Assembly: GCF_009733815.1 (NCBI RefSeq)
Contig: NZ_WNXY01000009.1
Span: forward strand, 62,001-126,000
Direction: 5' to 3'
Source: Pseudactinotalea suaedae
GTDB lineage: Bacteria > Actinomycetota > Actinomycetes > Actinomycetales > Beutenbergiaceae
DNA: 64,000 nucleotides
Shown: positions 10,501-64,000 of the stretch, piece by piece
Numbering within the stretch: position 1 is the stretch's first letter
How the letters are laid out: each line of letters begins with the position of its first letter
The notes under the pieces: model-generated
The model's database searches: none
What the model was told of the DNA's origin: nothing
What the model saw: the letters and a program-made list of their open reading frames with translations, nothing else
Made by a program: the position numbers and the translations under genes

Positions 10501-12372
10501 GGTGACGTGTTCGGGAACGGGATGCTGCTGAGCGAGCACATCCGGCTGGTAGCGGCCTTCGACCACCGGCACGTGTTCGTGGACCCCGAGCCCGACGCCG
10601 CGACCTCGTTCGCGGAGCGGCGGCGCCTGTTCGACCTGCCGAGCTCGAGCTGGGCCGACTACGACAGCACGTTGATCAGCGAGGGCGGTGGCGTCTACCC
10701 GCGGTCGGCGAAGTCGGTGCCGATCACGCCGCAGGTGCGCGCAGCTCTGGCGATCGAGCCGGGTGTGGAGGAGCTGACGCCGGCCGAGCTGATCCACCGG
10801 GTGCTGCTCGCGGAGGTCGACCTGCTGTGGAACGGCGGCATCGGCACCTACATCAAGGCCGCCACCGAGACCCACGGCGAGGTGGGCGACCGCGCCAACG
10901 ACGCCATCCGCGTCGACGGCGGCCGGCTCCGGGCGCGGGTCGTGGGTGAGGGCGGCAACCTCGGGGCGACGCAACGCGGCCGCATCGAGGCCGCGCACGC
11001 CGGTGTGCACATCAACACCGACGCCATCGACAACTCCGCCGGCGTGGGCACCTCAGACAAGGAGGTCAACCTCAAGATCCTGCTGGCCGAACCGGTGCGG
11101 TCCGGCGGACTGACCCTCGAGCACCGCAACGAGCTGCTCGCCTCGATGACGGACGCCGTGGCCGCTCAGGTGCTCCGGGACAACTACGAGCAGAACGTGC
11201 TGCTCGGGAACAGCCGCGCCAACAGCGCCGTGATGCTTCCCGTGCACAGCCGCCTGATCAGCTGGCTGGAGGAGCGCGGCGATCTCGACCGCGAGCTGGA
11301 GTTCCTGCCCGACGAGAACGAGATCGAGCGGCGGGTCGCCGCCGGTGAGGGCCTGACCCGACCCGAGTTCGCCGTCGTGCTGGCCTACGCCAAGCTCGCG
11401 CTCAAGAACGAGCTGGCCACCACCACGCTGGCCGAGGAGCCGTGGTTCGAGCGCACGCTCGCCGAGTACTTCCCGGAGCCCGTGCGGGAGCGGTACGCCG
11501 AGGAGCTGGCGTCGCACCCGCTGCGCAGCGAGATCATCGTGAACTCGGTGGTGAACTCGATGGTCAACCGCGGTGGCATCACGTTCGCGTACCGTGCCAC
11601 CGACGAGACCGGCGGGTCGGTCGAGCAGATCACCCGGGCGTTCGTGACCTCGCGGGAGATCTTCGGGCTGCAGAGCTTCGTGCGCGAGGTCGAGGAGACC
11701 GACAACGTCGCACCGACGCTCGTGCAGACCGACCTGTACCTGACGTTCCGGCGGCTGCTCGACCGCGCCTCGCGCTGGTTCGTGCTGAACCGGCCGGACA
11801 TGGTCGACGTCGCTGCCGAGGTCGAGACGTTCGCCGGGCCGGTGCAGACCTGGACGTACCGGATGGGTGAGCTCCTGCAGGGCGAGGACGCCGCGCGGCA
11901 CCGGGCGAAGGTCGCCGAGCTGCAGGAGGCGGGCTTCACGGACACGTTCGCCGAGCGCGGCGCCGCGCTGCTGGCATCGCTGTCGCTGCTCGACATCGTG
12001 GCGACGGCGGACGAGGAGCCGGCCGCCGTCGACGAGGTCGCTCGCGTCTACTACGCGCTGTCGAGCCAGATCGGCTTCGACTACCTGATGCAGCGGGTCA
12101 ACGCCTTGCCGCAGGACGACCGGTGGGACTCGATGGCCCGCGCGGCGATGCGCGACGACCTGTCCTCGGTGCTGATCGCGCTGACGCGTTCGGTCCTTGC
12201 GGCCACGTCCTCCGAGGCCTCCGCGTCGCAGCGCATCGACGACTGGGCGCAGACCGGCGGCACCGCCACCACCCGCGCCCTCGACGCCCTCGCCGCCGTG
12301 CGCGAGGTGGAAGACCCGGGGATCGCGACGTTGTCGGTCGCCGTCCGGACGCTGCGGACGCTCGCCGGATGA
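7531..12372 (+). CDS. NAD-glutamate dehydrogenase (large, GDH-180 class)
   Basis: This 1613-residue enzyme oxidatively deaminates L-glutamate to 2-oxoglutarate and ammonia with NAD. Length and domain order match the GDH-180 class: a long N-terminal regulatory region with ACT-like parts, then the catalytic core, then a C-terminal helical region. The core signature is VARGGLRWSDRREDFRTEVL followed by KAQMVKNAVIVPTGSKGGF, and the NAD-domain stretch GEGGNLGATQRGRIE lies later. The GTG at 7531 is preferred to the one at 7513 because AAGGAG sits seven bases before it. A TAGACT -10 element lies at 7488-7493. It is a single-gene unit ending at a strong palindrome. Confidence 0.96.
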   Translation: MATAGTESDAIRDRVFRQTAELTAEGGEPELAPVIERVLEHVATEDLLEREPRDLVGAVRSLRELAATREPRQTLVRVFSPSLRENDWTSRRTIVQICTDDSPFLVDSVTAAIAQDELAVHLIVHPLLVVRRSESGSLEDVRDERPPATVGVTESWMHLEVDRLTTAEAQDALATHLRDVLDDVRAAVEDWREMKSACEAVVADLERGVPPTVDQAEVQPTQEFLSWLADDHFTFVGYREYHLEEADVDGGTELVLRPVEGSGLGILRTPDAPYTRLRPEAQATAREPRLLTVTKANSRSTVHRPVYLDYIGIRTFDADGAVTGEKRFLGLFTSTAYAESVFRLPIAAAKAEAVLDRSGFAASSHSGKDLAQILEAYPRDELFAVGVDRLTQTVQEVAYLAERRRPKLFVRKDEFGRFASALVFVPRDRYTTAVRLRIESMLREAFDAEHVDYTTRLSDSPLAQLHFVVRAGTGQSVPDVDVTALQERVLDAIRTWDEQLADAVHDAGHGEDVANDLLARFRFPEAYKEDIDPADAVGDLIRLGELSSSGRSVHLAAGEGPGERRFKVFSDEPLSLTRVLPVLTDLGVEVVDERPYSIASPGSGRSDDGLHIYDFGLRARPEIWDEDGAPFEEAFTAVRSGAAESDALNALVLTAGLSWREIVVLRAIGRYLRQVGSAFSMDYIEEALIANPRLAAGVVRLFETRFDPDRPGDATAREEETATQVQDLLHALDDVASLDADRILRSFIGIVRATLRTNFFQRDESAPGGVKPYVSMKLDCRRVPNLPQPHPMAEIWVYAPSVEGVHLRFGKVARGGLRWSDRREDFRTEVLGLVKAQMVKNAVIVPTGSKGGFVAKQLPDPAADRGAWVEAGKAAYRTFIRGLLDLTDNRVGADVVPPERLVRHDADDPYLVVAADKGTASFSDVANEISREYGFWLDDAFASGGSAGYDHKGMGITARGAWESVKRHFRELGVNTQEEDFTVVGVGDMSGDVFGNGMLLSEHIRLVAAFDHRHVFVDPEPDAATSFAERRRLFDLPSSSWADYDSTLISEGGGVYPRSAKSVPITPQVRAALAIEPGVEELTPAELIHRVLLAEVDLLWNGGIGTYIKAATETHGEVGDRANDAIRVDGGRLRARVVGEGGNLGATQRGRIEAAHAGVHINTDAIDNSAGVGTSDKEVNLKILLAEPVRSGGLTLEHRNELLASMTDAVAAQVLRDNYEQNVLLGNSRANSAVMLPVHSRLISWLEERGDLDRELEFLPDENEIERRVAAGEGLTRPEFAVVLAYAKLALKNELATTTLAEEPWFERTLAEYFPEPVRERYAEELASHPLRSEIIVNSVVNSMVNRGGITFAYRATDETGGSVEQITRAFVTSREIFGLQSFVREVEETDNVAPTLVQTDLYLTFRRLLDRASRWFVLNRPDMVDVAAEVETFAGPVQTWTYRMGELLQGEDAARHRAKVAELQEAGFTDTFAERGAALLASLSLLDIVATADEEPAAVDEVARVYYALSSQIGFDYLMQRVNALPQDDRWDSMARAAMRDDLSSVLIALTRSVLAATSSEASASQRIDDWAQTGGTATTRALDALAAVREVEDPGIATLSVAVRTLRTLAG

Positions 12373-38204: not shown

Positions 38205-43353
<5,149 letters not shown>

Positions 43354-44626: not shown

Positions 44627-46738
44627 TCACGGGCGCGCGGCGAAACCCTCGGCGACGGCGACCCACCCCTCGGGCAGGTCGGCCCGCCTCGGCGACCCGT
44701 CGCGGTCGACCCAACCGGCGAACAGCAGCGCGGCAGCCATCAGCAGGCCGCCGTTGCCCGGCAGGTACAGCGGCATCCGGTGCGGCACCTGCTGGTTGTG
44801 GCCGTTGGCGAGGTAGGTGTTCTTGGCCTCCCCGCGCAGCAGCGCGTCGAGCGCGATGTCGGAACGGCCGAGCCGGGTGGCACACATGGCGATCATCGGG
44901 AAGTCCCAGCCCCAGGCGCTGCGCCAGTCCCACTGCGCGCACGCACGCTCGAGGGTCCGGAGCATCGCGTCGTGGTCGAGCGCGCCGGTGTCGGGGACCA
45001 CCCCGAGAGCGCCGAGCATCGACGGGTGGTCCCGGTAGGCGGTGCGCGGCGGGTTCTGCACGGCGTCGTAGTGGCCGTCCTCGCTGACCACCGGTCGCAG
45101 TCCGGCGGCGACCCTCGCCCACTCGGCGGGCTGCTCGCGGTCGTCGGCGCGGCGCCAGGCCAGCGCCGTCTCCAGCGCCCAGCGCACGTACGCGACCTCG
45201 AACAGCGGGTCCCAGGTCTCGCGCGCGCCGTAGACCTCCTGTGCCGGCATCAGCGGCGGCGGCAGGTGGTACGCCCCGGCCTCCCCCGCGAGCGCGAACG
45301 AGGCGAGGAACTCGGCGGTCTCGTCAACCAGGTCGCGGTAGCGGTCACGCACCGCGGCGGCGTGATCGGCGTCGTCGGCACCCATGCGCAGCATCTCGGC
45401 GTAGCTGATCACGTGCGGCTGCTGCCACAGCAGCAGCGGCCCGATGACGTTCGGGCTCTCGATGCCCTCAGGTCCGACGTGCTTGGGCCACCGGGCGCCC
45501 CGGAAGCCCTGATCGGCGGCGATCCGCTTCGCGACCGGCAGGATCTCGCGGTACCAGTCCAGGCTTCGCTCGAGCAGCTCGGGGCGTCCCCAGGCCGGGA
45601 AGTGCGCCGCGTGCCACCAGTGCATCTCCAGGTGGAAGGTGCCGCCCCAGCTGTTGCACACCAGCCCGGTCTCCTGCGGTGGCGTGCTCCCGGAGCAGTG
45701 CACCTTGGTCTGGTACTGCGAGAGCACGATGCGGCGCTCGAGCTCGTGCGCCCGCTCGTCGGTGCTGGCGCCGAGGTCGAGCGCGGCACCGCTGCTCCAG
45801 AAGTCCGCCCAGCCGCGCTCGGACCGGGCGAGGACCGTCTCGGCGTCGTCGAGCACGTCGGTGCCCAGCGCCGCGGCGAGCTCGACGACGGCACTCAATC
45901 GGCCGCCGTCGGCCGTCAGGGTCCAGCGGTGCCCCTCCCCCGACACGACCACCTGGCCCGCGGCGCGGACCTGATAGGTGGCCTCGTCCACGCGCCGGTC
46001 CCAGACGTGGGCACCGCCGTCGCGGCGCAGCGTGGTGATGTGCGACTCGGGGCGGTCCCACACCGGCGGGGCCTCGAAGCTCTCCTCGACGCTCGGAAAG
46101 GCGATCTCGACGGCGAGACGTCCGCCGTCGAGCAGCGCCGAGTCGATCGCGAACGCGATCGCGTCGCGCTCGGGGTCGACGGCGGTACGGACCTGGACCG
46201 GGACACCCACGAGCTCGAACCGGCTGGTGACGATGCCGGTCCACACGTCGAGCTCCTGCGAGCGCACCGTGATCTCGTCCCACTCAGGGGTCCGGCCGTC
46301 GAGGAGGAGGCCGATCCTGGCCAGGTGCAGCCGCTGCGGGTTGACCCAGTAGTAGTAGCCCGCGGCGCGGCCGGACGCCGCCGACTGCTCGCGGTCCTCC
46401 ATGTAGTCGTAGGCGGTGGGGTACTCGATGGGGCCGTGCGGGCCCGCGTACTGCTCGAGGGTGTCGCTCAGCCGCCAGCCCTCGGGGTTCGGCGCCCAGT
46501 GGTAGCCCCACTGCGCCTGCGTCCCGAGCGGCATCGCGACCTCACCGCGAGCGCGCGCGGCGTCGCGCTCGTAGCGGTCGGCGAAGGTCTGCAGCCCGGT
46601 GTGGTCCACGGTGAAGGCCAGCTCGCCGTTGCCGACCGAGAGCGGGGCCTCGGGTCGCGGGGCGTCGTACCGGATGGTGTGACGGCGGATCACGGCTGCT
46701 CGGTCGATCACGTGCGCTGACTCCTCGTTCGTCACCAC
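44627..46738 (-). CDS. (alpha/alpha)6-barrel glycosidase, GH65/GH95-like
   Basis: This 703-residue intracellular protein has the layout of clan GH-L/GH95-type enzymes. An N-terminal beta-sandwich with PLSVGNGELAFTVDHTGLQTF comes first, then a linker and a helical toroid (about 310-690) with LVCNSWGGTFHLEMHWWHAAHF and TYLANGHNQQVPHRMPLYLPGNGG. I cannot place the catalytic acid with certainty. It is divergent from the LacI gene with an operator nine bases before its GTG start, so it belongs to that regulon. The substrate is presumably an alpha-linked plant or mucin oligosaccharide; this is inference. Confidence 0.7.
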   Translation of the reverse strand: MVTNEESAHVIDRAAVIRRHTIRYDAPRPEAPLSVGNGELAFTVDHTGLQTFADRYERDAARARGEVAMPLGTQAQWGYHWAPNPEGWRLSDTLEQYAGPHGPIEYPTAYDYMEDREQSAASGRAAGYYYWVNPQRLHLARIGLLLDGRTPEWDEITVRSQELDVWTGIVTSRFELVGVPVQVRTAVDPERDAIAFAIDSALLDGGRLAVEIAFPSVEESFEAPPVWDRPESHITTLRRDGGAHVWDRRVDEATYQVRAAGQVVVSGEGHRWTLTADGGRLSAVVELAAALGTDVLDDAETVLARSERGWADFWSSGAALDLGASTDERAHELERRIVLSQYQTKVHCSGSTPPQETGLVCNSWGGTFHLEMHWWHAAHFPAWGRPELLERSLDWYREILPVAKRIAADQGFRGARWPKHVGPEGIESPNVIGPLLLWQQPHVISYAEMLRMGADDADHAAAVRDRYRDLVDETAEFLASFALAGEAGAYHLPPPLMPAQEVYGARETWDPLFEVAYVRWALETALAWRRADDREQPAEWARVAAGLRPVVSEDGHYDAVQNPPRTAYRDHPSMLGALGVVPDTGALDHDAMLRTLERACAQWDWRSAWGWDFPMIAMCATRLGRSDIALDALLRGEAKNTYLANGHNQQVPHRMPLYLPGNGGLLMAAALLFAGWVDRDGSPRRADLPEGWVAVAEGFAARP

Positions 46739-46793: not shown

Positions 46794-47810
46794 ATGGTGA
46801 CGCTACGAGATGTGGCCGGGCACGCGGGTGTGTCGGTCTCGGTGGTGTCCCGGGTGCTCAACGCGGACCCGTCGATCCGGATCCGCCCTGAGACGCGGGA
46901 CCGCGTGCTCGACTCCGCGCGGCTGCTGCGCTACGCCCCGAACTCGGCCGGGCGCTCGTTGCGCCGTTCGCGCACCCACCTCCTCGCGCTCGTGGTTCCC
47001 GACGTCACCAACGCCACCTTCACCGATCTGGTGAACGGTGTGGAGTCGCGGGCGCTCGACCAGGACTACTCGGTGCTGCTCGCCTCCAGCCCGCGCATGC
47101 AACCCGGGAGCGACGGTTTCACGCGGCTGCTGAGCGAACGACTCGTCGACGGCGTGCTGCTGCAGAAGGGCGACGACGCGCCGATCGATCTCGTGGCCCG
47201 GGCGCTGAGCCACCCCGAACGGACCGTGCTGATCAACTCGGGACCGGTGCAGGGCATGTCGACGATCGCGATCGACGACGTGGCCGCCGGTGCTCTCGCC
47301 ACCCGCCACCTGCTGGAGCTGGGGCACCGAAGCATCGGGTACATCGGCGGGGTGCCGACGTCGGACTCGAACGACCGACGCCGTTCCGGCGTCGAGAAGA
47401 CCCTGGCCGAGGCCGGGCTGAGCCTGGCACCTGAGCACACGACCTCCCTCGGGTACACCTACCGGTCGGCACGCGACGCCGCTCGGCTGGTGCTGAGCCG
47501 GAAGAACCCGCCGACCGCGCTCGTGGTCGGCAACGTCAACGCCGGCATCGGCACGATCACCGAGGCGGCCGAGATGGACGTCCGGGTGCCGCAGGACCTC
47601 TCGGTCGTGGCGATCCACGACATCTGGCCCGCGATCACCTGCGCGCCCGCCCTGACCACGGTCAAGCTCCCGATGGCCAAGCTCGGCGCGACCGCCGTCG
47701 ACGTCCTGCTCGCCAGCTTCGACGCCCCGGACCCGACCGCCCGCCTCGTCGACGACCCCGCGCCGGAGCTGGTCCTCCGCGCCTCGACCGCGCCCCCGCC
47801 GACCGTCTGA
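46794..47810 (+). CDS. LacI family transcriptional regulator
   Basis: This 338-residue repressor has an N-terminal LacI helix-turn-helix (VTLRDVAGHAGVSVSVVSRVLN), a hinge helix (YAPNSAGRSLRRSRTH) and a periplasmic-binding-protein-like sensor domain starting LLALVVPDVTNATFTDLVNGV. The sensor contains HRSIGYIGGVPTSDSNDRR and DLSVVAIHDIWPAITCAP, standard for the family. The probable binding site AAACGTTT occurs in its own divergent promoter and before the GH2 operon, so it likely controls both. The effector would be a product of the galactosidase/fucosidase system. Confidence 0.93.
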   Translation: MVTLRDVAGHAGVSVSVVSRVLNADPSIRIRPETRDRVLDSARLLRYAPNSAGRSLRRSRTHLLALVVPDVTNATFTDLVNGVESRALDQDYSVLLASSPRMQPGSDGFTRLLSERLVDGVLLQKGDDAPIDLVARALSHPERTVLINSGPVQGMSTIAIDDVAAGALATRHLLELGHRSIGYIGGVPTSDSNDRRRSGVEKTLAEAGLSLAPEHTTSLGYTYRSARDAARLVLSRKNPPTALVVGNVNAGIGTITEAAEMDVRVPQDLSVVAIHDIWPAITCAPALTTVKLPMAKLGATAVDVLLASFDAPDPTARLVDDPAPELVLRASTAPPPTV

Positions 47811-47840: not shown

Positions 47841-48383
47841 CTACGACGTCTCGGCGCGGCTGCTCGCGGACGACGTGATCCGGCGCGGGGCACTGGTCTG
47901 CATCAGGGCCAGCAGCCGGTCGCGCCCCTCCGGCGTGAGGAAGCTCGGGTTGCCGATCTGCGCAACCCTCAGCACCTCGATCTCGGCGAGGACGGGATCG
48001 GCCTGGCACGCGGCGCGTGACACCGGACTCTCGACGACCGCCAGGGTGAGCTGCGCCACGAGTCCGGCCTTCGGCGCCGCGGCGGCGCCCCGTGTGCTCT
48101 CGGCTGCCTCGTCCGCCACGAGCGGAGGATCCTCGAGAAGGCCCACGGCCCAGAACCCCGAGACCACGGTCCTGCTGCCCCCGCTGATCCAGAGAAACAC
48201 CAGGTCGTCCGGCCTCATCAGATGCGATCGGTAGTTCTGCTGCACGCACCAGCCGGCGATGTCGGTGCCGCCGGCGGCGAGCAGGGCGTCGACGTCGGAG
48301 AGCGCGGGGTTGGCCTTGACCACCCACGCGCCGAACGGTTGCCCGTTGACGCGGCGCGGCTCGCCTCCTGGTGGAAGGGTCAT
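47841..48383 (-). CDS. EVE domain-containing protein
   Basis: This is a 180-residue soluble protein with an EVE/PUA-like domain. GAWVVKANPALSDVDAL, GWCVQQNYRSHLMRPDDLVFLWISGG and SGFWAVGLL form the core used by EVE proteins to recognise modified bases. A C-terminal region with a predicted helical stretch follows (LAEIEVLRVAQIGNPSFLTPEGRDRLL). Such domains often sense modified DNA or RNA, sometimes in restriction or toxin systems. It is convergent with LacI and lies 35 bases after the Gfo/Idh gene, perhaps by read-through only. Confidence 0.8.
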   Translation of the reverse strand: MTLPPGGEPRRVNGQPFGAWVVKANPALSDVDALLAAGGTDIAGWCVQQNYRSHLMRPDDLVFLWISGGSRTVVSGFWAVGLLEDPPLVADEAAESTRGAAAAPKAGLVAQLTLAVVESPVSRAACQADPVLAEIEVLRVAQIGNPSFLTPEGRDRLLALMQTSAPRRITSSASSRAETS

Positions 48384-48418: not shown

Positions 48419-49492
48419 TCAGGGGAGCGGGTGGCCGCCGGCCCGGCTCGAGGAGTGCGCGGCCTCGAGGACCGCCATGGTGCGCAGGACGTCGGTGACC
48501 GCGGTCGGCAGGGTCGACGACTCGCCGGTCACGAACCGCTGCAGCGCGCCCATCGAGCCGATGAAGGCGTCGGGGAACCACGAACCCTCGACGTCGATCT
48601 GCTCCCATCCGGAGCCGCGACCGATCTCCAGCACGTCCGGGCCGCCACGGGGATAGTCCAGCAGCAGGCCCAGCTGGGTGCGGATCGCGCCCGTGGTGCC
48701 GTGCCACAGCACCGACGCCTCCTGGTGCTCCGGCCCGAAGGTGTGGTCGTGGTTGGTGCTGATGCTCACCCGCAGCGGGCGGTCGGCGTAGTGCAGCAGG
48801 TAGGCGGTGCGCGTGCTGGCGAGGTCGGGCTTGGCGGGGTGCCCCACCGTCACGGCGCTGACGCCGCTGGGGTCGCCCACGAACGAGCGCACCAGGTCGA
48901 CGTAGTGCACCGAGTGCATCGGCATCTCCATGCGCTCGAGCCCGAACACGCTGGGGAACAGCTCCCACCGCGTCTCGACCCGCACCAGCACCTCGAGGTC
49001 GACCAAGTCGCCGATCGCCCCCTGCGCGATGAGCCGCCGCGCCGCCGCGACGTGCGGCGCGAACCGCAGCTGGGTGTTGACGGCGGCGGTCAACCGCTTC
49101 CGCTCGACGATCCCCGCCAGCTCCTGCGCCTGGGCGTAGCTGTAGCCGAGCGGCTTCTGCAGCAGCACGGCCGCGCCGTCGGGCAGCGCTTGCAGGATCG
49201 GGGCGAAGGCGTCCGGCATCACCGCGACGTCGTAGATCGCCTCGGTCCCGTGCGCGGCCACCGCATCGGCGACGTCCCCGTAGCACCGCTCGACGGCGAA
49301 CGCCGCGGCCAGCTCGGCCGCTCGCCCGGGGTCGCGGTCGACGACCGCCGCGACCGGGAAGCCGGCCTTGGCGTAGGCGGGCAGGTGCGCGTCACGCGCG
49401 ATGCCGCCCGCGCCGACGAGCACGATCGGCTGCGGCGCGGTCGGGAGGTCGGCGAGGTACGCGGGGTCCGGCGTCAGCTCGGGGAACGTCAC
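48419..49492 (-). CDS. Gfo/Idh/MocA family NAD(P)-dependent sugar dehydrogenase
   Basis: This is a 357-residue oxidoreductase with an N-terminal Rossmann domain (IVLVGAGGIARDAHLPAYAKAGF) and the catalytic-domain lysine motif AAVLLQKPLGYSYAQ, equivalent to EKP in the family. MEMPMHSVHYVDLVRSFVG supplies the conserved histidines. The family oxidises sugar hydroxyls, often at C1 to give a lactone. The GTG start overlaps the stop of the fuconolactonase-like gene, so lactone formation followed by hydrolysis by its neighbour is a natural reading. It is the sixth gene of the GH95 operon. Confidence 0.88.
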   Translation of the reverse strand: MTFPELTPDPAYLADLPTAPQPIVLVGAGGIARDAHLPAYAKAGFPVAAVVDRDPGRAAELAAAFAVERCYGDVADAVAAHGTEAIYDVAVMPDAFAPILQALPDGAAVLLQKPLGYSYAQAQELAGIVERKRLTAAVNTQLRFAPHVAAARRLIAQGAIGDLVDLEVLVRVETRWELFPSVFGLERMEMPMHSVHYVDLVRSFVGDPSGVSAVTVGHPAKPDLASTRTAYLLHYADRPLRVSISTNHDHTFGPEHQEASVLWHGTTGAIRTQLGLLLDYPRGGPDVLEIGRGSGWEQIDVEGSWFPDAFIGSMGALQRFVTGESSTLPTAVTDVLRTMAVLEAAHSSSRAGGHPLP

Positions 49493-50334
49493 TCCGCCAG
49501 CCCGTAGATCCGCGTCGCGGTCCCGGACCGCAGCGCCTGGGCCTGCGCGGCCGGCAACGCTGCGACCGCGTCCACGAGCGCGCGCATCGTGGCCTCGGCC
49601 CCGCTGAAGATCGTGCACACCGGCCAGTCGCTCCCCAGCAGCAGGCGGTCGGCACCGAACGCCGCGAGGGCGGCACCCAGCACCGCCTCCATCTGCTCGG
49701 GTGTCACCGCGGCCTCGGCCACGTCCCGGCGGTAGATCCCCGACACCTTCGCCACGACGTTGGGCAGCGCAGCGATCTCGGCGAGCTGGCCCTGCCAACG
49801 GGACCAGTCGTCGTCGGGCAGGCCCACCGGAGCGGTGCCGAGGTGGTCGAGCACGAACGTCAGGTCCGCGTGCTCGCGTGCGAGCGTGACGAGGTTCTCG
49901 AGGTGACGCGGCAGCACGGCCACGTAGTCGAGCGGGACACCCGCGGCCTCGATCAGCCCGATGCTGCGGCGCTCCTCGGCGCCCAGGACCCAGTCGGGGT
50001 CGGGCCGGTCGTGCGTGAGGTTGCGGACGCCGACGAAGCCGGGGTCCTCGGCCAGCGTCGCCAGCTGGGCGGCCACCGTGCCGGGGTCCTCGAGCGGCAG
50101 GTAGACCACGGCGCCGGCGAGCCGGGCGTCGACCGCGACCAGCTCCAGCAGGTAGGCGGTCTCCGCCAGCGTCTCGTCCGCCTGCACCAGCACCGCCCGC
50201 TCCACCCCGAACGGCGTGAGCGCGGCGAAGCCCTGGTCCAACGAGTGGTCCGCCTGCAGCTGCGCAGGTGCGCCGTCGAGCCAGGCGTAGCGGGACCGCG
50301 CGCGGTCCCAGGTGTGCAGATGGGCGTCGATCAC
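49489..50334 (-). CDS. Amidohydrolase-2 family lactonase (L-fuconolactonase-like)
   Basis: This 281-residue TIM-barrel hydrolase is of the COG3618 type. The opening motif MIDAHLHTWDRARSRYAWL with HxH, the mid-barrel FVLDHLGTAP and the late LLLGSDWPVC are standard for L-fucono-1,5-lactonase and related sugar-lactonases. It would open a sugar lactone to the aldonate. It sits between the MaoC gene (three bases) and the Gfo/Idh gene (four-base overlap). A GH95 fucosidase at the head of the operon fits L-fucose or L-galactose as the sugar. Confidence 0.88.
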   Translation of the reverse strand: MIDAHLHTWDRARSRYAWLDGAPAQLQADHSLDQGFAALTPFGVERAVLVQADETLAETAYLLELVAVDARLAGAVVYLPLEDPGTVAAQLATLAEDPGFVGVRNLTHDRPDPDWVLGAEERRSIGLIEAAGVPLDYVAVLPRHLENLVTLAREHADLTFVLDHLGTAPVGLPDDDWSRWQGQLAEIAALPNVVAKVSGIYRRDVAEAAVTPEQMEAVLGAALAAFGADRLLLGSDWPVCTIFSGAEATMRALVDAVAALPAAQAQALRSGTATRIYGLAE

Positions 50335-50337
50335 CGT

Positions 50338-50784
50338 TCAGCTCCGCTTGTTGACCACGTACAGGTGCACCAGCGACAGCACCGTATCGCCGTCCTGGTT
50401 GGTGACCGTCACCCGCTCGTCGACCCGACCCAGCTCGGGTCGGCGCGGGTGGTCGGTGACCTCGATGATCTCGGCCTGCACCGTGATGCTGTCCCCGAGG
50501 AGCACCGGCTTGATGAAACGGATCCGGTCGTAGCCGTAGCTCATCGCCTGCGGGTTGACGTCCCCGGCGGTCATGCCGACCGCGATCGAGACGATCAGCG
50601 TGCCGTGCGCGATGCGGCCGCCCAGCCCTGCCTGGATCGCCCAGCGCTCGTCCATGTGGTGCGGGAAGAAGTCACCGGTCTGCCCCGCGTGCAGCACCAC
50701 GTCGGCCTCGGTGATCTGGCGGCCCAGCGTGGACCGCACCTCACCCACCCGGTAGTCCTCCAGGTAGCGGTCAACGACCTGCAT
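50338..50784 (-). CDS. MaoC family (R)-specific enoyl-CoA hydratase/dehydratase
   Basis: This is a 148-residue hot-dog-fold hydratase. The catalytic segment ADVVLHAGQTGDFFPHHMDERWA with the Asp/His pair and GRIAHGTLIVSIAVGMTAGD are diagnostic. It acts on CoA or ACP thioesters, adding or removing water. Its 5' end overlaps the binding-protein-like gene by fourteen bases. A thioester hydratase beside a CoA-transferase inside a sugar-degradation operon suggests that the sugar acid or one of its products is activated to CoA. Confidence 0.9.
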   Translation of the reverse strand: MQVVDRYLEDYRVGEVRSTLGRQITEADVVLHAGQTGDFFPHHMDERWAIQAGLGGRIAHGTLIVSIAVGMTAGDVNPQAMSYGYDRIRFIKPVLLGDSITVQAEIIEVTDHPRRPELGRVDERVTVTNQDGDTVLSLVHLYVVNKRS

Positions 50785-51886
50785 CTGCTGCTCCCCACGC
50801 TGCGAACAACTGGTCCAGGTCCTCGAGCACCGCAGCTGCCGGCTCCCGCCCGGTCAGCCCGCGGTGCACCCGCTCGCACGCCGCGTCCTGCACGTGCATG
50901 TAGCCCGGGTGCTGCGGCCGCAGGCTCGCGGCGTCGAGCGTGGCGCGGGTGTCGCGGAAGAAGTCGTGCGTGAGGGCGTTGAGCGCGTCGTCCTCCCACG
51001 CCGCCACGTGCCCGGGCTGGCCACCGCCGGTCGCGTAGACACCGGCCTGCACCTCGCCGGTCGCCGCCCAGGTCGCGAACGCGATCGCGTCGTCGCGGTG
51101 CGCGCTTCGCGCCGACACCGACAGCCCGGCGCCGCCCAGCATCGAGCCGCGCGGAACGCCGTCGATCGCGGGGATGTCGGTCCACCGGACCAGGTGCTCG
51201 CGGAACCCGTCGCGTGCGTAGTTGCTGTACCCGTACAGCAGCGGGGCGTAGGCCCACCGGTCCTCGGCCGCCATCGCGTCGGCCACCTGGATCGGGTTCA
51301 TCGCCAGACACTCGGGCGGAACCAGGTCGCGCAGCTGCCCCAGGAGGTCCCACGCCTGCCCGAAGGCCACCGGGTCACCGAAGCCGGAGCGGCCGGCGTC
51401 GGATCCCTGCAGACCGGAGGTGAGCGTGAAGGTCGAGGCGAACGCGTCGATGGGCTTGGAGGGCCAGAGCACGACGCCGGCGCTCGCCAGCTCGAGCACC
51501 TCCTCCCACGTGCGTGGCGGCTCGGGCAGGAGGTCGGGACGGTAGGCCGCCACCTGCGCGGCGGCGTCGATCGCGAGCCCGTACCGGGCGCCCTCCCAGC
51601 GATAGCTGGCGTCGCTGCGCCCGACGAACGCGCTCGGCCCCTCACCCTCGGGCAGCGCGGCCAGCAGCCCGGCGTGGGCGGCGTGCGGGATGTGCGGGTG
51701 GTCGATGACCAGGAGGTCGTAGGTCTCGCACAGCGCCTCCAGTCCCTGGTCGGCGAAGGCCTGGAGCGACCGCGCCTCCCAGGTGATCTCGACGTCGTGC
51801 GTCTGGGCGTAGGCGCGCGAGGCCGCCACCACGCTGTCCCGGCCGCGCTCGTGGTCCCACGTGATGCCGCGGAGCCGGGTGGTCAT
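50771..51886 (-). CDS. Solute-binding-protein-fold protein without signal peptide
   Basis: This 371-residue protein has the overall sequence pattern of family-1 sugar-binding proteins: YDLLVIDHPHIPHAAHAGLL, LLPEPPRTWEEVLELA, DDAIAFATWAATGEV. It begins MTTRLRGITWDHERGRDSVV with no hydrophobic export segment or lipobox, and its ATG is fixed by an ATGA overlap with the CoA-transferase gene. It is therefore expected in the cytoplasm. It could be a sugar-acid-binding chaperone, a regulator or an enzyme on this fold. No transporter gene adjoins it on this strand. Confidence 0.75.
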   Translation of the reverse strand: MTTRLRGITWDHERGRDSVVAASRAYAQTHDVEITWEARSLQAFADQGLEALCETYDLLVIDHPHIPHAAHAGLLAALPEGEGPSAFVGRSDASYRWEGARYGLAIDAAAQVAAYRPDLLPEPPRTWEEVLELASAGVVLWPSKPIDAFASTFTLTSGLQGSDAGRSGFGDPVAFGQAWDLLGQLRDLVPPECLAMNPIQVADAMAAEDRWAYAPLLYGYSNYARDGFREHLVRWTDIPAIDGVPRGSMLGGAGLSVSARSAHRDDAIAFATWAATGEVQAGVYATGGGQPGHVAAWEDDALNALTHDFFRDTRATLDAASLRPQHPGYMHVQDAACERVHRGLTGREPAAAVLEDLDQLFAAWGAADAGR

Positions 51887-53079
51887 GACACGACCTCGGC
51901 GGGCGTGGGAGCCAGCTCGCTCCGGACGGCCTCGGTGTCGGCGCCCAGCGTGGGCGCCGCCCGCCCACCCCACAGCCGCTCGCCGTCGACACGGATCGGC
52001 AGCCGCGTGGTGGTGACGTCGGTCGTCGAGCCGTCGGCCTCGTCGCGTCGCAACGTCTGCACCATGTCGATCGCGCGGAAGCCGTCGTGCTCCACGAGCT
52101 CGTCGATCGTGTGCAGCGGTGCGCACCAGACGTCGGCGGCGTCGAGGACCTCCAGCCACGCCGCGGTGGTGCGGGTCCGCAGCCGCGCGGCGAGCAGCGT
52201 CTCGATGTGGCCGCGCTGCTCCCACCAGGTCTCCGGCTCGGTCATCTCGACCAGCTCGGGGATCTCGAGCAGCCTGCCGAGCTGGGGGACCGGGTTCATC
52301 GCGATCGAGAGGTAGCCGTCCGCGGTGGGGTACACCCCGTACGGGGCGGGCAGGTAGGTGTGGGCGCTGTGCGGACCGCGCGGGCGCGGGGTGATCGCAG
52401 CCGGCTCGGTCAGCCGCACCGAGAGCATCTCGAACTGCAGGTCGAGCATCGCCTCCAGCAGCGAGGTCTCCACCTGGCCGCCGACGCCGGTGCGCGCCCG
52501 CCGCAGCAGCAGTGCCGTGATGCCGTGCGCGAGGTGGCAGGAGGCGAGGTGGTCGGCGATCGAGATGCCGAACGGGCTGGGCTCGGGGTCGGCCTGCAAC
52601 CACGGCAGCCCGGAGATCGACTGCGCGAGCAGGTCCTGCCCCGGTCGGTCGCGCCACGGGCCCTCGTTGCCGTACCCGGTGATCGACCCGTAGACCACGC
52701 CGGGGTTGACCTCCTTGACGGTCTCGTAGTCGAGCCCGAGCCGCGTCATCACACCGGGCCGGAAGTTCTCCACCACGACGTCGGCCTGCTCCACCAGCTG
52801 CCGCACGAACGCGAGCTGCTCGGGGTCCTTGAGGTCGGCCGCGACGCTCTGCTTGCCGCGGTTCATCGCGTGGAACGACACGGTGTCGGTGCCTGCCCGT
52901 GCGCCCGCGAACGCGAGCCCGCGCCCGATGTCCCCAGAACCGGGGCGCTCGATCTTGATGACGCGGGCGCCGAGATCGGCGAGCCGGAGCGCGGCGACAG
53001 GTCCGGCCAGGAACTGGCTGAAGTCGAGGACGAGGAAACCCTCCAGCGGCCGAGGCAGTCCTGGCGAGGGAACGGTCAT
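51883..53079 (-). CDS. CaiB/BaiF-type (class III) CoA-transferase
   Basis: This is a 398-residue family III CoA-transferase. RPLEGFLVLDFSQFLAGPVAALRLADLGARVIKIE opens the first CoA-binding fold. The active-site aspartate lies in PFGISIADHLASCHLAHGI, and LDYETVKEVNPGVVYGSITGYG and YGVYPTADGYLSIAM are characteristic. It transfers CoA between carboxylic acids. Four-base overlaps couple it to the GH95 gene before it and the binding-protein-like gene after it. Class III enzymes usually use succinyl-, acetyl- or formyl-CoA donors; the acceptor here is unknown. Confidence 0.92.
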   Translation of the reverse strand: MTVPSPGLPRPLEGFLVLDFSQFLAGPVAALRLADLGARVIKIERPGSGDIGRGLAFAGARAGTDTVSFHAMNRGKQSVAADLKDPEQLAFVRQLVEQADVVVENFRPGVMTRLGLDYETVKEVNPGVVYGSITGYGNEGPWRDRPGQDLLAQSISGLPWLQADPEPSPFGISIADHLASCHLAHGITALLLRRARTGVGGQVETSLLEAMLDLQFEMLSVRLTEPAAITPRPRGPHSAHTYLPAPYGVYPTADGYLSIAMNPVPQLGRLLEIPELVEMTEPETWWEQRGHIETLLAARLRTRTTAAWLEVLDAADVWCAPLHTIDELVEHDGFRAIDMVQTLRRDEADGSTTDVTTTRLPIRVDGERLWGGRAAPTLGADTEAVRSELAPTPAEVVS

Positions 53080-55571
53080 GACTGCTCCAGGGAGAGGTCG
53101 TGGGCCACCCGGACGGACTGACCGGGGGCGATGTCGAGCACACGCTCGTGAGATCCGTGGACCACGCGCACGGTCCGCGGGACCGGGTGGTCGGACGAGA
53201 TGCGGGCGCCGGTGAGGGCGCCGCCGCGCCACCGCATGTCGACGACCAGGCCGCCGCGGGCACGCAGGCCGCGGACCTCGCCGTCGGGCAGGTCCGGCGG
53301 GAGCGCCGGCAGGAGCTCGAGCACACCGGCGTGCGAGGCGAGCAGTGCCTCGGAGATCGCGGCCACGACGCCGAGGTTGCCGTCGATCTGGAACGGCGGG
53401 TGGGCGGAGAACAGGTTGCGATACAGACCACCCCGCCACCGGCCGCCGGTGGGACCGGGCTCGATCTCGACGCTGCGCCGCACGAACAGGTCCAGCAGTC
53501 GTTGCACACCCTCGGGGTCGCGCAGGCGGGCGCGCATCGCCATCTTCCACGCCAGCGACCACCCGGTCCCCTCGTCGCCGCGCGCGTCGAGGCTGCGCCG
53601 GGCCGCGTCCGCGATGTAGGCCGACGGCGACGCGTCGGTCGGGTGCACACCGACCAGGTGGACGAGGTGCCGGTGTCGCGGGTCGACCATCTCCTCGACG
53701 TCCGCCCACTCCCGCAGCAGGCCGGCGCTGTCCACGCCGATCTGGCGGATGCGCGGCAGCGCCTCGGCGGCCTCCTGGAGCAGCGCCTCGTCCGCGATGC
53801 CGTAGGTCTCCGCGAGCCGCAGCAGCGAGCGGAGCAGACCGCGGCTGAGCTCGAGGTCCATGGTCGAGTCGGCGGCGACCGAGGAGCCCCGTGCGGTTCC
53901 GGCGACCGCGAAGCGGTTCTCGGGGGAGGTCGAGGGTGAGGTGCCGAGCGTGCCGTCGGGGCGGGGCTCGAGCCAGTCGAGCACAAATCTCGCGGCACCG
54001 GCCAGCGTGGGCCAGAACCGTCGGGCGGCCTCCTCGTCGTGGCTGAAGGTGAGCCGGTCGACCATGTGCGAGCTCAGCCACACCCCGGCGAACGGCCAGA
54101 ACGCCCAGGCAGGGTCGTGCGTGCCGTCGCCCATCGGGTCCACGAACGCCCAGATGTCGCTCGCGTGGTGCGCGACCCACCCCTGCGAGCCGTAGACCCG
54201 CTCGGCGGGCTCGGTGCCGCGCTCGGCGAACGCCTCGATCAGGGCGAACAGCGGCTCGAGGCACTCGACCAGACCGGTGGTCTCCGCCAGCCAGTAGTTC
54301 ATCTCGAGGTTGATGTTCATCGTGAAGTCGGAGCTCCAGGGCGGCTGCATCTGCTGGTTCCAGATGCCCTGCAGGTTGGCGGGGGTGCCACCGGGCCTGG
54401 AGCTGGAGATCAGCAGGTAGCGGCCGTACTGGAAGAGCAGCGCGGCGAGCTCGGGGGCAGCGCCGACCCGCGCGGTCTCACCCTGGGCGACGGCCTCGAG
54501 CAACGCGTCGGTGTCGGCCGGGGCGTCCACCGCCGGCTCGGGACGGTTGCCGAGCCGCAGCTCGGCGCGGTCGTAGAGAGCGCGGTGCGCGGCGACGTGC
54601 TCGCGCTCCACCTGCTCGAGCCCGGCCGCCGCCGCCTGCTCGACCAGCTGCCTGGCCGCGGCGAGCGCGGGTCCCGGGTCACCCGAGGGGTCCTGCCCGA
54701 GCCGGGTGAACGTGGTCCGCACCGCCATCACCAGGGTCGCCCCGCCGTCGACCTCGATCACGACGCCGTGGGGCGCTGTGCGGGCGCGGACCTCGCCGCC
54801 CAGCGCGCGCATCACGACCGCCGCCTGCACGCCACGTGGATCCTGCGCCCACCGGATCGGGTCGGGCTCGCGCTGGAAGCCGGGCACCACGTCGTCGGGA
54901 GCACGAAGCACCATCCAGGCCTCGCCGTCCTCGGCACCGGACTGCTCGAGCCGCAGCGGTGAGTCGAGCGTGAACGCGACCGGCTGGCCGCTCGACTCGA
55001 CCTGCACCACCATCACCTGGTGCGGCGCGCTCACGAAGACCCGCTGCGTCACGGTGCCCGCCGGAGCCTCCGCCCTGGTCCAGGCGGTGGCCGCCTGCAG
55101 GTCGAGCCCACGCGCGTGACGTCCCGACGGAGCGGTGACCGTGTCGTTCGCGGGCACGACCTCGGCCTGCGGCGAGGGTTCGTGGACGCGGCCGATCGTG
55201 CGGCGCAGCCGAGCCAGGGGCTGGAACGACTGCGGATAGGAGTGCTGGAGCGCGTGCAACGCCTGCTCGGCGGCGACGTAGTCCCCGGCCGCGACGGCCT
55301 CGCGCGAGGCGGCGATCGCGGCGGCCGCGACCTCGCTGGTGACCGGGTGCGGCTGCGGCCTGCGGGGCGGCCCCGACCAGACCGAGCCGTCGTTGAGCCA
55401 GAGCAGCTCGTCCTCGACGCCGCCGTAGACCATGGCAGCGAGACGGCCGTTGCCGACCGGCAGCGCCTCGACCCACTCGGTCGCGGGGCTCGAGAACTCG
55501 AGCCGGTGAACCGGGTGCGCCACGGGCCTCGCCGGGTTCGGCACCACCTCGGACGAAAGCTCTGACGACAC
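53076..55571 (-). CDS. GH95 family alpha-L-fucosidase/galactosidase-like enzyme
   Basis: This 831-residue enzyme matches GH95: an N-terminal beta domain with TEWVEALPVGNGRLAAMVYGG, then the (alpha/alpha)6 barrel with WNQQMQPPWSSDFTMNINLE (Asn419, Asn421) and the base-bearing PPFQIDGNLG with Asp730. Where characterised members have a Glu in an HLWEHY-like segment, this one has SHMVDRL, so Asp505 may replace the general acid. There is no signal peptide. The GTG start has GGAG seven bases upstream, and a LacI-like AATCGATT lies before it. It heads a six-gene operon. Confidence 0.88.
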   Translation of the reverse strand: MSSELSSEVVPNPARPVAHPVHRLEFSSPATEWVEALPVGNGRLAAMVYGGVEDELLWLNDGSVWSGPPRRPQPHPVTSEVAAAAIAASREAVAAGDYVAAEQALHALQHSYPQSFQPLARLRRTIGRVHEPSPQAEVVPANDTVTAPSGRHARGLDLQAATAWTRAEAPAGTVTQRVFVSAPHQVMVVQVESSGQPVAFTLDSPLRLEQSGAEDGEAWMVLRAPDDVVPGFQREPDPIRWAQDPRGVQAAVVMRALGGEVRARTAPHGVVIEVDGGATLVMAVRTTFTRLGQDPSGDPGPALAAARQLVEQAAAAGLEQVEREHVAAHRALYDRAELRLGNRPEPAVDAPADTDALLEAVAQGETARVGAAPELAALLFQYGRYLLISSSRPGGTPANLQGIWNQQMQPPWSSDFTMNINLEMNYWLAETTGLVECLEPLFALIEAFAERGTEPAERVYGSQGWVAHHASDIWAFVDPMGDGTHDPAWAFWPFAGVWLSSHMVDRLTFSHDEEAARRFWPTLAGAARFVLDWLEPRPDGTLGTSPSTSPENRFAVAGTARGSSVAADSTMDLELSRGLLRSLLRLAETYGIADEALLQEAAEALPRIRQIGVDSAGLLREWADVEEMVDPRHRHLVHLVGVHPTDASPSAYIADAARRSLDARGDEGTGWSLAWKMAMRARLRDPEGVQRLLDLFVRRSVEIEPGPTGGRWRGGLYRNLFSAHPPFQIDGNLGVVAAISEALLASHAGVLELLPALPPDLPDGEVRGLRARGGLVVDMRWRGGALTGARISSDHPVPRTVRVVHGSHERVLDIAPGQSVRVAHDLSLEQS

Positions 55572-63516: not shown

Positions 63517-64000
63517 ATGACGACGACACTGCAGGCGATCGCCCGGCCCTCGGGTGGGCTGGCGATGGTGGCGATGGATCAGCGCGAGAGCCTTCGTCAC
63601 ATGTTCGACCAGGCCGGCGCAGGCCGTGTTCCCGACGGCGTTCTCACACAGTTCAAGCGGGACGTCGCGATCACGCTCGGCGAGCTCGCATCGGCCTTCC
63701 TCGTCGACCGCGATCTGGGCGGCCTGGAGATCCTGGCCGATCGGCTGCTCCCGCCCAGCTGCGGCTTCATCCTCGCGACCGACGCCCTCGAGCAGCGACC
63801 CGGCGGCCCGGTCGAGGACACGGCTCTCGACGACGGCGCGGTCGCGGCGGTCCGCGACGGGGTCGACGCGATCAAGCTGCTGCTGATCTGGCGGCGCGAC
63901 GAGCGCCGGGATGCGCGGATCGACCTCGCCCAGCGCTTCATCGCCGCGGCGCGCGAGCACGGCGTGCTCTCGGTCCTCGAGCCGGTCGTGCGTGCCGCAC
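63517..64000 (+). CDS. YihT/LacD-type class I aldolase, N-terminal part (cut by window end)
   Basis: The visible 161 residues begin LQAIARPSGGLAMVAMDQRES, followed by LRHMFDQAG, then ASAFLVDRDLGG, CGFILATDALEQ, DAIKLLLIWRRDE and HGVLSVLEPVVR. This pattern resembles YihT, the sulfofructose-phosphate aldolase of sulfoquinovose degradation, more than tagatose-bisphosphate aldolase LacD, which shares the fold. The lysine in DAIKLLL is in the strand region before the catalytic site; the Schiff-base lysine may lie beyond the edge. GGAGG lies six bases before the ATG. Further genes of the same operon probably follow outside the window. Confidence 0.75.
   Translation, partial: MTTTLQAIARPSGGLAMVAMDQRESLRHMFDQAGAGRVPDGVLTQFKRDVAITLGELASAFLVDRDLGGLEILADRLLPPSCGFILATDALEQRPGGPVEDTALDDGAVAAVRDGVDAIKLLLIWRRDERRDARIDLAQRFIAAAREHGVLSVLEPVVRAA

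Follow-up and report, generated by a model that had tools for sequence, protein, structure and literature searches.

A CoA-transferase paired with a solute-binding-protein fold in a proposed, apparently undescribed variant of oxidative sugar catabolism

Introduction

The oxidative breakdown of sugars, in the sections of the published accounts considered here, proceeds through free sugar acids, which are dehydrated by enzymes of the IlvD/Edd, enolase or UxaA/GarD families (PMC6336799). For L-fucose, the corresponding parts describe two non-phosphorylating routes (routes 1 and 3) composed of the dehydrogenase FucA, the lactonase FucB and the fuconate dehydratase FucC, followed either by FucF and FucG or by the aldolase FucH (PMC11199699). 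In Herbaspirillum, an ordinary dehydrogenase–lactonase–dehydratase set is located near a fucose transporter, as far as the relevant passage goes (PMC11378808). Pentose route II is outlined in the same literature as a dehydrogenase, a pentonate dehydratase, a 2-keto-3-deoxypentonate dehydratase and a semialdehyde dehydrogenase (PMC6336799, PMC11199699). The term CoA (coenzyme A) does not occur in the main text of either PMC11199699 or PMC6336799. An earlier, sequence-only reading had started from known oxidative fucose routes that lack a CoA-transferase and MaoC. Here we analyse the operon to which that reading referred, a set of six genes in a 64,000-nucleotide stretch of Pseudactinotalea suaedae DNA (hereafter the window; contig NZ_WNXY01000009.1, positions 62,001 to 126,000). 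It combines a GH95 glycoside hydrolase, an amidohydrolase and a Gfo/Idh/MocA oxidoreductase (Gfo) with a type III CoA-transferase (CaiB), a MaoC-family hydratase and a protein with the fold of a solute-binding protein (SBP), termed cSBP below.

CoA-recycling dehydration of hydroxy acids is known from other pathways, for example from the carnitine enzymes CaiB and CaiD. The operon resembles that system in having a type III CoA-transferase and a hydratase, so that CoA could pass from product to substrate. It differs in the SBP-fold partner, in the sugar-oxidation genes and in the use of MaoC or crotonase, and the window CaiB scores 70.5 bits against the NCBIfam L-carnitine CoA-transferase, whose cut-off is 413. 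The L-fucose pathway is the other close counterpart. A fuconolactonase-type amidohydrolase, a mutarotase-family protein, an SDR, an FAH hydrolase and the dehydratase FucD accompany the module in many loci or genomes, whereas the published scheme, in the parts considered, contains no CoA-transferase, hydratase or SBP partner (PMC11199699). No description of a CaiB–SBP or sugar-acid-CoA module was found in the open-access literature among the matches listed. The module is an apparently undescribed variant of oxidative sugar catabolism, and would be more than a variant if the mechanism proposed below holds.

Conservation of the CaiB–SBP pair

A search of GTDB genomes with an alignment of cSBP confirmed at least 577 stretches. 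The counts given here use the best 80 of them, with up to about 10 kb on each side of the cSBP gene; many stretches are cut, three of the 80 (L048–L050) come from the same genomes as L033, L038 and L032, and the set leans towards close relatives because only the best 80 of at least 577 were kept. CaiB is present in 78 of the 80 loci and lies within 150 bp of cSBP in 77. The MaoC family is represented in 75 (the second rhizobial type described below included), the amidohydrolase in 62, the Gfo gene in 51, a RhaM-type mutarotase in 40 and FucD in 14. The sequence-only reading had named homologous operons lacking the CoA genes as a finding that would overturn it; the CoA genes are instead the most conserved part of the loci. 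No CaiB gene was found in the stretches of L069 and L127. The L069 locus of Brucella gallinifaecis (cSBP at 9995–11119) keeps the SBP gene, the lactonase, SDR, FAH and FucD, and is possibly a decaying locus.

Hosts among the best 80 comprise Micrococcales, Kribbella, many rhizobia, Rhodobacterales, Caballeronia and one planctomycete, and plasmid records extend them to Bacteroidota and Azospirillum. A phylum-wide scan gave 3 of 396 genomes, but with only four candidates scored per genome it provides no estimate of prevalence.

Of 92 loci, 89 gave a usable CaiB–cSBP pair; L069, L076 and L127 were left out. An overlap of exactly 4 bp joins the two genes in 77 of the 89 pairs; 30 of these overlaps are in loci that we assign to Actinomycetota, which hold 33 pairs, and the rest are in other phyla, mainly Alphaproteobacteria. 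The 12 remaining pairs include L108 and L117, in which the order is reversed with 4 bp, and L070, in which the lactonase gene lies in between. CaiB–CaiB and SBP–SBP protein distances correlate at 0.965 over the 89 pairs, a value inflated by shared ancestry. Asp176 of the window CaiB, which we take to be the catalytic aspartate position, is conserved in all 89 aligned partners, and the nearest solved relatives include formyl-CoA and succinate–hydroxymethylglutarate CoA-transferases. CaiB and cSBP are the most constant pair of the module; the families of the dehydrogenase, lactonase, hydratase and lower pathway all vary around them.

Fold and location of the SBP-fold protein

The AlphaFold2 model of cSBP, based on a 50-sequence alignment, adopts a confident maltose-binding-type fold, with a mean predicted local distance difference test (pLDDT) score of 95.7 and a predicted template modelling (pTM) score of 0.93. 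When the model was searched with Foldseek, the sulfoquinovosyl-binding protein and maltose-type SBPs ranked first, the former being the best match. In fold and family, cSBP is like the SBPs of sugar ABC transporters (MalE/SmoF type). Unlike them, it has no apparent signal peptide, and its gene is coupled to a CoA-transferase instead of belonging to a permease unit. A separate ABC SBP of one cluster is found in 40 of the 80 loci.

A conserved [TS]WxH motif lies close to the N-terminus, with no more than 11 residues ahead of it in all 80 relatives. When the first 40 residues are scanned for their best 12-residue hydropathy, the 80 relatives give a median of 0.40 and a maximum of 1.43, and 40 ABC SBPs of the same loci give a median of 2.12 and a minimum of 0.77; the two ranges overlap. 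The start of cSBP is supported in most relatives because the gene overlaps CaiB. The protein is probably located inside the cell, judging from these N-termini, and the cytoplasmic binding-protein fold proposed from the sequence is thereby borne out in its fold and in the lack of an apparent export signal.

Residues invariant in both alignments of cSBP include His11, Arg13, Asp61, His62, Asp106, Tyr219 and Arg322, several of which we assume, from maltose-binding protein, to lie on ligand-binding loops. Our guess is that cSBP is the sugar-acid-binding partner of CaiB.

A second SBP family adjoins the Gfo gene in four genomes with two CaiB genes, from Rufibacter, Persicobacter, Croceibacterium and Caballeronia (Table 1). 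Three of its four members begin at the first strand without a signal-like segment, and the Rufibacter annotation begins later. They score 75–99 bits against the ABC SBPs of the fucose loci and at most 34 against the first SBP family, which hints at a separate recruitment.

Hydratases of the module and the second branch

The best solved relative of the window MaoC is 4ffu (E 7.4e-46), a PDB entry whose chain shares 100% identity with the MaoC encoded at the S. meliloti 1021 locus. The motif [TS]GDF[FY]PHH is found in 63 of the 80 loci, as TGDFFPHH in 53, SGDFFPHH in seven and TGDFYPHH in three. We take the motif of MaoC (R)-hydratase 2 to be SGDxNPxH and presume functional roles for its Asp and His; the window motif has the same pattern of an Asp with a His five residues on. 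A second, rhizobial MaoC type keeps this Asp and has no His at the expected place. It occurs in 27 loci, 17 loci having both types and seven neither, and may not be a hydratase because that His is missing. The gene of the second type directly precedes CaiB, for example in L025 (7337–7840).

In a second branch of cSBP (about 34% identity), the gene set is composed of a Gfo or SDR gene, CaiB, SBP, a crotonase-type enoyl-CoA hydratase and an FAH-family protein, often with an aldehyde dehydrogenase. Crotonase takes the place of MaoC in all seven second-branch loci of the Ruaniaceae. Among 13 plasmid loci of the second-branch type, 11 have a crotonase that scores above 320 bits (L198–L201, L205, L206, L208 and L210–L213); L209 has a remote crotonase of only 120 bits. 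Both candidate Glu motifs, which are presumably catalytic, are present in all nine crotonases examined. The replacement of MaoC by an unrelated enoyl-CoA hydratase points to real thioester chemistry, and the two branches follow a similar pathway logic with exchanged enzyme families. The families of the lactonase step also differ: the Shinella HZN7 locus contains an SMP-30-type lactonase gene, and a metallo-beta-lactamase-fold protein may take the place of the lactonase in the Ruaniaceae second-branch loci.

With an SDR or Gfo, an FAH-family protein and often an aldehyde dehydrogenase, the second-branch loci resemble pentose route II. The Azospirillum locus L205 (SDR, CaiB, SBP, crotonase, FAH, aldehyde dehydrogenase, ABC transporter) departs from that route in having CaiB, SBP and crotonase at the place where the pentonate dehydratase is expected. 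Its FAH protein has no NCBIfam match and is only a putative 2-keto-3-deoxypentonate dehydratase. The planctomycete locus L070 holds Gfo, SBP, amidohydrolase, CaiB and an aldolase, with MaoC and an IclR gene divergent. The best solved relative of this aldolase is YagE, a probable 2-keto-3-deoxygalactonate aldolase, and its best NCBIfam match is DapA, below the cut-off. By gene content, L070 and L205 look like oxidative sugar pathways in which CaiB, SBP and MaoC or crotonase stand at the place of the sugar-acid dehydratase.

The operon within the Ruaniaceae and its link to fucose

The SBP was detected in 12 of the 59 genomes searched, the source genome included. The close type is present in 11 genomes (72–83% identity in the other ten) and a distant type, with 31–36% identity, in seven. 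The order CaiB, SBP, MaoC, amidohydrolase, Gfo is kept in the ten other close-type loci, of which the short contig L033 stops within the amidohydrolase gene; CaiB of L034, merged by the gene caller, was recovered by tblastn. The neighbourhood that the sequence-only reading suggested looking for elsewhere recurs in ten further members of the family, some of which have a truncated or disrupted GH95, and because of this recurrence the operon is more than a chance assembly.

Of the 11 Ruaniaceae operons, seven carry a full-length GH95. One further copy is interrupted by the end of its contig, another has a disrupted frame, and in two operons a remnant of 93 codons is left. In L034, L037 and L038, which have the disrupted copy and the two remnants, the CoA genes are nonetheless found. 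The window GH95 begins with a GTG at 55571, the start adopted by the sequence-only reading, or at 55523 according to the gene caller, and its start is uncertain. Its catalytic domain is matched by Pfam, solved GH95 relatives were found, and the motifs SPEN, FQIDGN and NINLEMNYW, to which we ascribe a catalytic role, are all present. GH95 exceeds 300 bits in only two of the 80 loci. It is a family-specific addition to the module; on these counts and the disrupted copies it was rejected as a core part, and the description of the operon as fucosidase-led does not extend to the loci in general.

In a second genome of the same genus (G002; locus L216, contig G002:C25), both flanks of the operon are syntenic, with matched genes of 64–90% identity except one at 37%. 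Among its genes that match window positions 38427–59544, the amidohydrolase alone occupies the place of the operon, and it is intact. The SBP was not found anywhere in this genome, FucD and FAH are present there, and the other operon genes were sought at this place. Since only the lactonase stays at this place in G002, the other five genes (GH95, CaiB, SBP, MaoC and Gfo) were gained or lost there together, and the lactonase, judged from this genome, has a role of its own.

The best NCBIfam match of the window amidohydrolase is L-fucono-1,5-lactonase (152 bits, below the 400-bit cut-off), and it matches the solved Amidohydrolase 2 structure 4dlf with an E value of 9.6e-27. The Gfo/Idh family member is a putative sugar 1-dehydrogenase by its family match. 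Gfo as the sole fucose dehydrogenase is weakened by genes that we read, from our own inspection without a library search, as AKR-type fucose dehydrogenases; these occur in 14 of the 80 loci and also where FucD is encoded in G013. In rhizobia, the module adjoins an IclR gene, a sugar ABC transporter, an enolase-type enzyme, a RhaM-family mutarotase, Gfo and MaoC. The S. meliloti locus continues with an SDR, an FAH hydrolase and FucD, and the CaiB–SBP pair lies about 10 kb from the rest. In S. meliloti 1021 the pair occupies roughly positions 731300–733600 of pSymB, and MaoC roughly 751761–752222. The S. meliloti FAH protein matches 2,4-didehydro-3-deoxy-L-rhamnonate hydrolase at 429 bits, below the cut-off of 500. 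In several actinobacteria the module is intermixed with FucD, LacI, lactonase and transporter genes. In addition, the FucD relative of the Ruaniaceae has an SDR, FAH or mutarotase gene alongside in several genomes.

Proposed mechanism

We regard it as highly probable that the module is a real and conserved unit whose enzyme families suit it to CoA-thioester chemistry alongside sugar oxidation. In the mechanism that we favour, GH95 would free a fuco-configured sugar, which Gfo would oxidise to the lactone and the amidohydrolase would hydrolyse to the sugar acid. CaiB, together with its cytoplasmic SBP-fold partner as the sugar-acid-binding component, would then attach CoA to the acid. MaoC would remove water across C2–C3, with the thioester acidifying the C2 proton and the C3 hydroxyl leaving. 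The enol product would be 2-keto-3-deoxyaldonyl-CoA, whose CoA would be transferred by CaiB to a further acid molecule. The 2-keto-3-deoxy acid released in this way would enter the usual lower pathway, either 2-keto-3-deoxyfuconate dehydrogenase and hydrolase or an aldolase. We infer every reaction of this scheme, as well as its substrate, the CaiB–SBP complex and the recycling of CoA. The central proposal, that an aldonyl-CoA is dehydrated to a 2-keto-3-deoxy acid while CaiB cycles the CoA and the SBP presents the sugar acid, is tentative, with somewhat less than an even chance of being right. Its wider form is more tentative still: an undescribed dehydration route that, in place of a metal-dependent aldonate dehydratase, would use a two-part CoA-transferase, whose second subunit would be a recruited cytoplasmic SBP, followed by MaoC or crotonase and with CoA recycled. 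Such a route would handle the acids of hexoses, deoxyhexoses and pentoses in at least four phyla, and would have recruited an SBP at least twice.

If true, such a thioester branch would introduce a new chemical principle into sugar breakdown, one represented in model rhizobia, Azospirillum and soil actinobacteria. It would also explain the hundreds of SBP annotations as extracellular proteins that adjoin CoA-transferases and are apparently not exported. The module offers a directly testable gene set, and the structure of the S. meliloti 1021 MaoC is already solved.

Conventional dehydratases and alternative explanations

Several observations weigh against this mechanism, above all the conventional dehydratases. 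A FucD relative is present elsewhere in all 14 Ruaniaceae genomes searched for it, three of which gave no match to the SBP. Among 20 other genomes, chosen by hand and not at random, FucD is present in 14. Five of the six without it (L075, L083, L084, L108 and L114) have a two-gene UxaA/GarD-like set within the locus, defined by clustering with a UxaA/GarD-like protein of Bauldia (clusters c39 and c40). The MRa enolase-type enzyme occurs in 32 of the 80 loci, many of them rhizobial, and its dyad is intact in the close copies shown. The hydratases add to this: the MaoC motif has Phe or Tyr where we take the canonical residue to be Asn, the second rhizobial MaoC type is left unexplained by the scheme, and the second-branch locus L207 of Streptomyces has MaoC and no crotonase. 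Finally, crotonase-type CaiB genes stand without a directly adjacent SBP in L061, L111 and L202. A MaoC-type CaiB–SBP pair lies within 10 kb each time, and one SBP may serve both CaiB proteins.

None of the six operon genes is a fuconate dehydratase of the enolase or UxaA type by Pfam. The source genome has a FucD relative elsewhere (58% identity), on which the module as a simple replacement of FucD in this genome was rejected. The proposal of the sequence-only reading that a sugar acid is handled as a CoA thioester stands in part: the CoA genes are the most conserved and genes of the fucose route share many of the same loci, but the module does not simply replace the known fucose route. Because the normal dehydratase is present in most genomes examined, the module of the fucose loci probably acts on a different isomer or derivative, or in parallel.

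The planctomycete is the only one of the 20 genomes showing neither FucD (no match at E 1e-60) nor the UxaA/GarD-like set, UxaA not having been searched there by profile. No enolase or IlvD/Edd gene was seen among the genes of the L070 stretch, and its genome holds one of each, on contigs that were not matched to the locus. The enolase and IlvD/Edd search covered 11 hand-chosen, non-random genomes or records; ten plasmid loci gave no enolase-superfamily or IlvD/Edd match in the fetched stretch, where UxaA/GarD was not searched by profile. The nearest matches lie about 15.5 kb from the SBP, on two Streptomyces plasmids. Plasmid loci outside this search include L024–L028, L047, L200, L202, L208–L211 and L213. 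Of these, the rhizobial L025–L028 and L047 contain an enolase-type gene, and L200 and L208 each contain a remote one encoded on the opposite strand. The UxaA/GarD-like copy of L108 is nearest to galactarate dehydratase, at 159 bits versus 731. In an enolase homologue beside the crotonase branch of the Ruaniaceae, the His and Asp of the dyad, which we presume to be needed in enolase-type dehydratases, are missing in all five full-length copies, whereas FucD has both.

The presence of FucD or a UxaA/GarD-like dehydratase in 14 of 14 Ruaniaceae and 19 of 20 other genomes is what a stereochemical salvage would lead one to expect. The module would then epimerise a C2 or C3 isomer of fuconate as its CoA ester, by loss and re-addition of water or by racemase-like proton exchange, and L-fuconate would be passed to the ordinary dehydratase. 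Methylacyl-CoA racemase is a CaiB relative that carries out such a proton exchange, racemases are among the solved relatives of CaiB, and G002, with the lactonase alone in place, has FucD. Such a salvage leaves unaccounted for the Azospirillum stretch, which has no enolase or IlvD/Edd dehydratase, and the planctomycete stretch, where none was seen, and we consider it unlikely. Alternatively, a fuconate substituted at C3 (O-methyl, O-glycosyl or sulfate), and as such unusable by FucD, could undergo beta-elimination as a CoA ester to give 2-keto-3-deoxyfuconate. A sialate O-acetylesterase and an acetylxylan esterase in Rufibacter, a GH106 in Croceibacterium and the GH95 of the window are consistent with such substrates, as is the closeness of the SBP fold to a binding protein for an anionic glycoside. 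The substituted acid is, however, conjecture throughout, and no substituent-removing family was seen when the gene clusters frequent in the 80 loci were read by eye; we consider this explanation very improbable.

CaiB, SBP and MaoC might also act on a small acid derived from the sugar further down, or on an unrelated co-imported substrate. The solved CaiB and MaoC relatives include a formyl-CoA transferase and a beta-methylmalyl-CoA dehydratase, which handle small hydrophilic acids, and what we read as a BMP-type transporter set, a family assignment we presume, follows the SBP in 13 of the 80 loci. The genes nevertheless stay near the dehydrogenase and lactonase while the lower pathway differs, and we think a side acid quite unlikely. 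Much the same low probability applies to a cSBP that is an enzyme or sensor and no CaiB subunit, with CaiB and MaoC as an ordinary pair: the invariant His, Arg, Asp and Tyr residues, several presumably on ligand-binding loops, and the three crotonase-type CaiB genes without an adjacent SBP suit it, but the 4-bp overlap that couples the SBP gene to CaiB in 77 of the 89 pairs does not, nor does the reversed order in L108 and L117, which keeps the pair together. Chance neighbours without a common pathway were rejected for the CoA genes on their conservation across several phyla, and we give this explanation practically no weight.

Operon layout and neighbouring genes

The six genes form one tightly packed minus-strand unit (55571 to 48419) without internal stops (Table 1). 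The recomputed junctions are overlaps of 4 (GH95/CaiB), 4 (CaiB/SBP) and 14 bases (SBP/MaoC), a gap of 3 bases (MaoC/amidohydrolase) and an overlap of 4 bases (amidohydrolase/Gfo). They agree exactly with the overlaps of 4 to 14 bases and the 3-base gap given by the sequence-only reading, and Pfam profiles match each of the gene families it named.

Table 1 Coordinates of the operon, its neighbours in the window and the second SBP family
Feature	Position	Strand	Evidence or remark
GH95 glycoside hydrolase (alpha-L-fucosidase/L-galactosidase family), lead gene	53076..55571	-	Pfam Glyco_hydro_95_cat, E 3.7e-132
CaiB/BaiF type III CoA-transferase, Asp176	51883..53079	-	Pfam CoA_transf_3, E 3.1e-95
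SBP-fold partner, probably cytoplasmic (cSBP)	50771..51886	-	Pfam SBP_bac_8, E 6.5e-13
MaoC hot-dog hydratase/dehydratase, motif TGDFFPHH, Asp38 and His43	50338..50784	-	Pfam MaoC_dehydratas, E 8e-21
Amidohydrolase-2, fucono-1,5-lactonase-like	49489..50334	-	Pfam Amidohydro_2, E 3.1e-41
Gfo/Idh/MocA oxidoreductase, probable sugar dehydrogenase	48419..49492	-	Pfam GFO_IDH_MocA, E 3.8e-12; start set by overlap with lactonase stop
LacI-family regulator beyond the 3' side of the operon	46794..47810	+	Pfam; orthologue in 9 of 10 homologous loci, except short contig L033
Divergent sugar ABC transporter beyond the 5' side: two permease genes and an SBP with N-terminal signal-like segment	55860..59544	+	Gene calls; BPD_transp_1 for first permease
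Second SBP family, L195	12670-13797
Second SBP family, L196	12439-13671
Second SBP family, L197	2426-3613
Second SBP family, L117	13318-14511

Three genes matching the divergent ABC transporter in size and position are present in nine of the ten homologous loci. An EVE-like gene (47841–48383, minus strand) directly follows the operon and was not found in the ten homologous loci of the family, one of which is a short contig. A 703-residue protein encoded on the minus strand at 44627–46738 has no Pfam match; genes for proteins of about 670–740 residues adjoin LacI in most loci of the family and are likened to it by size alone. The source genome comprises 4.54 Mb in 21 contigs. At the edge of the window, a gene for a DeoC/LacD-family aldolase (63517–64000; L193 1–399) crosses the boundary and adjoins a second sugar ABC transporter.

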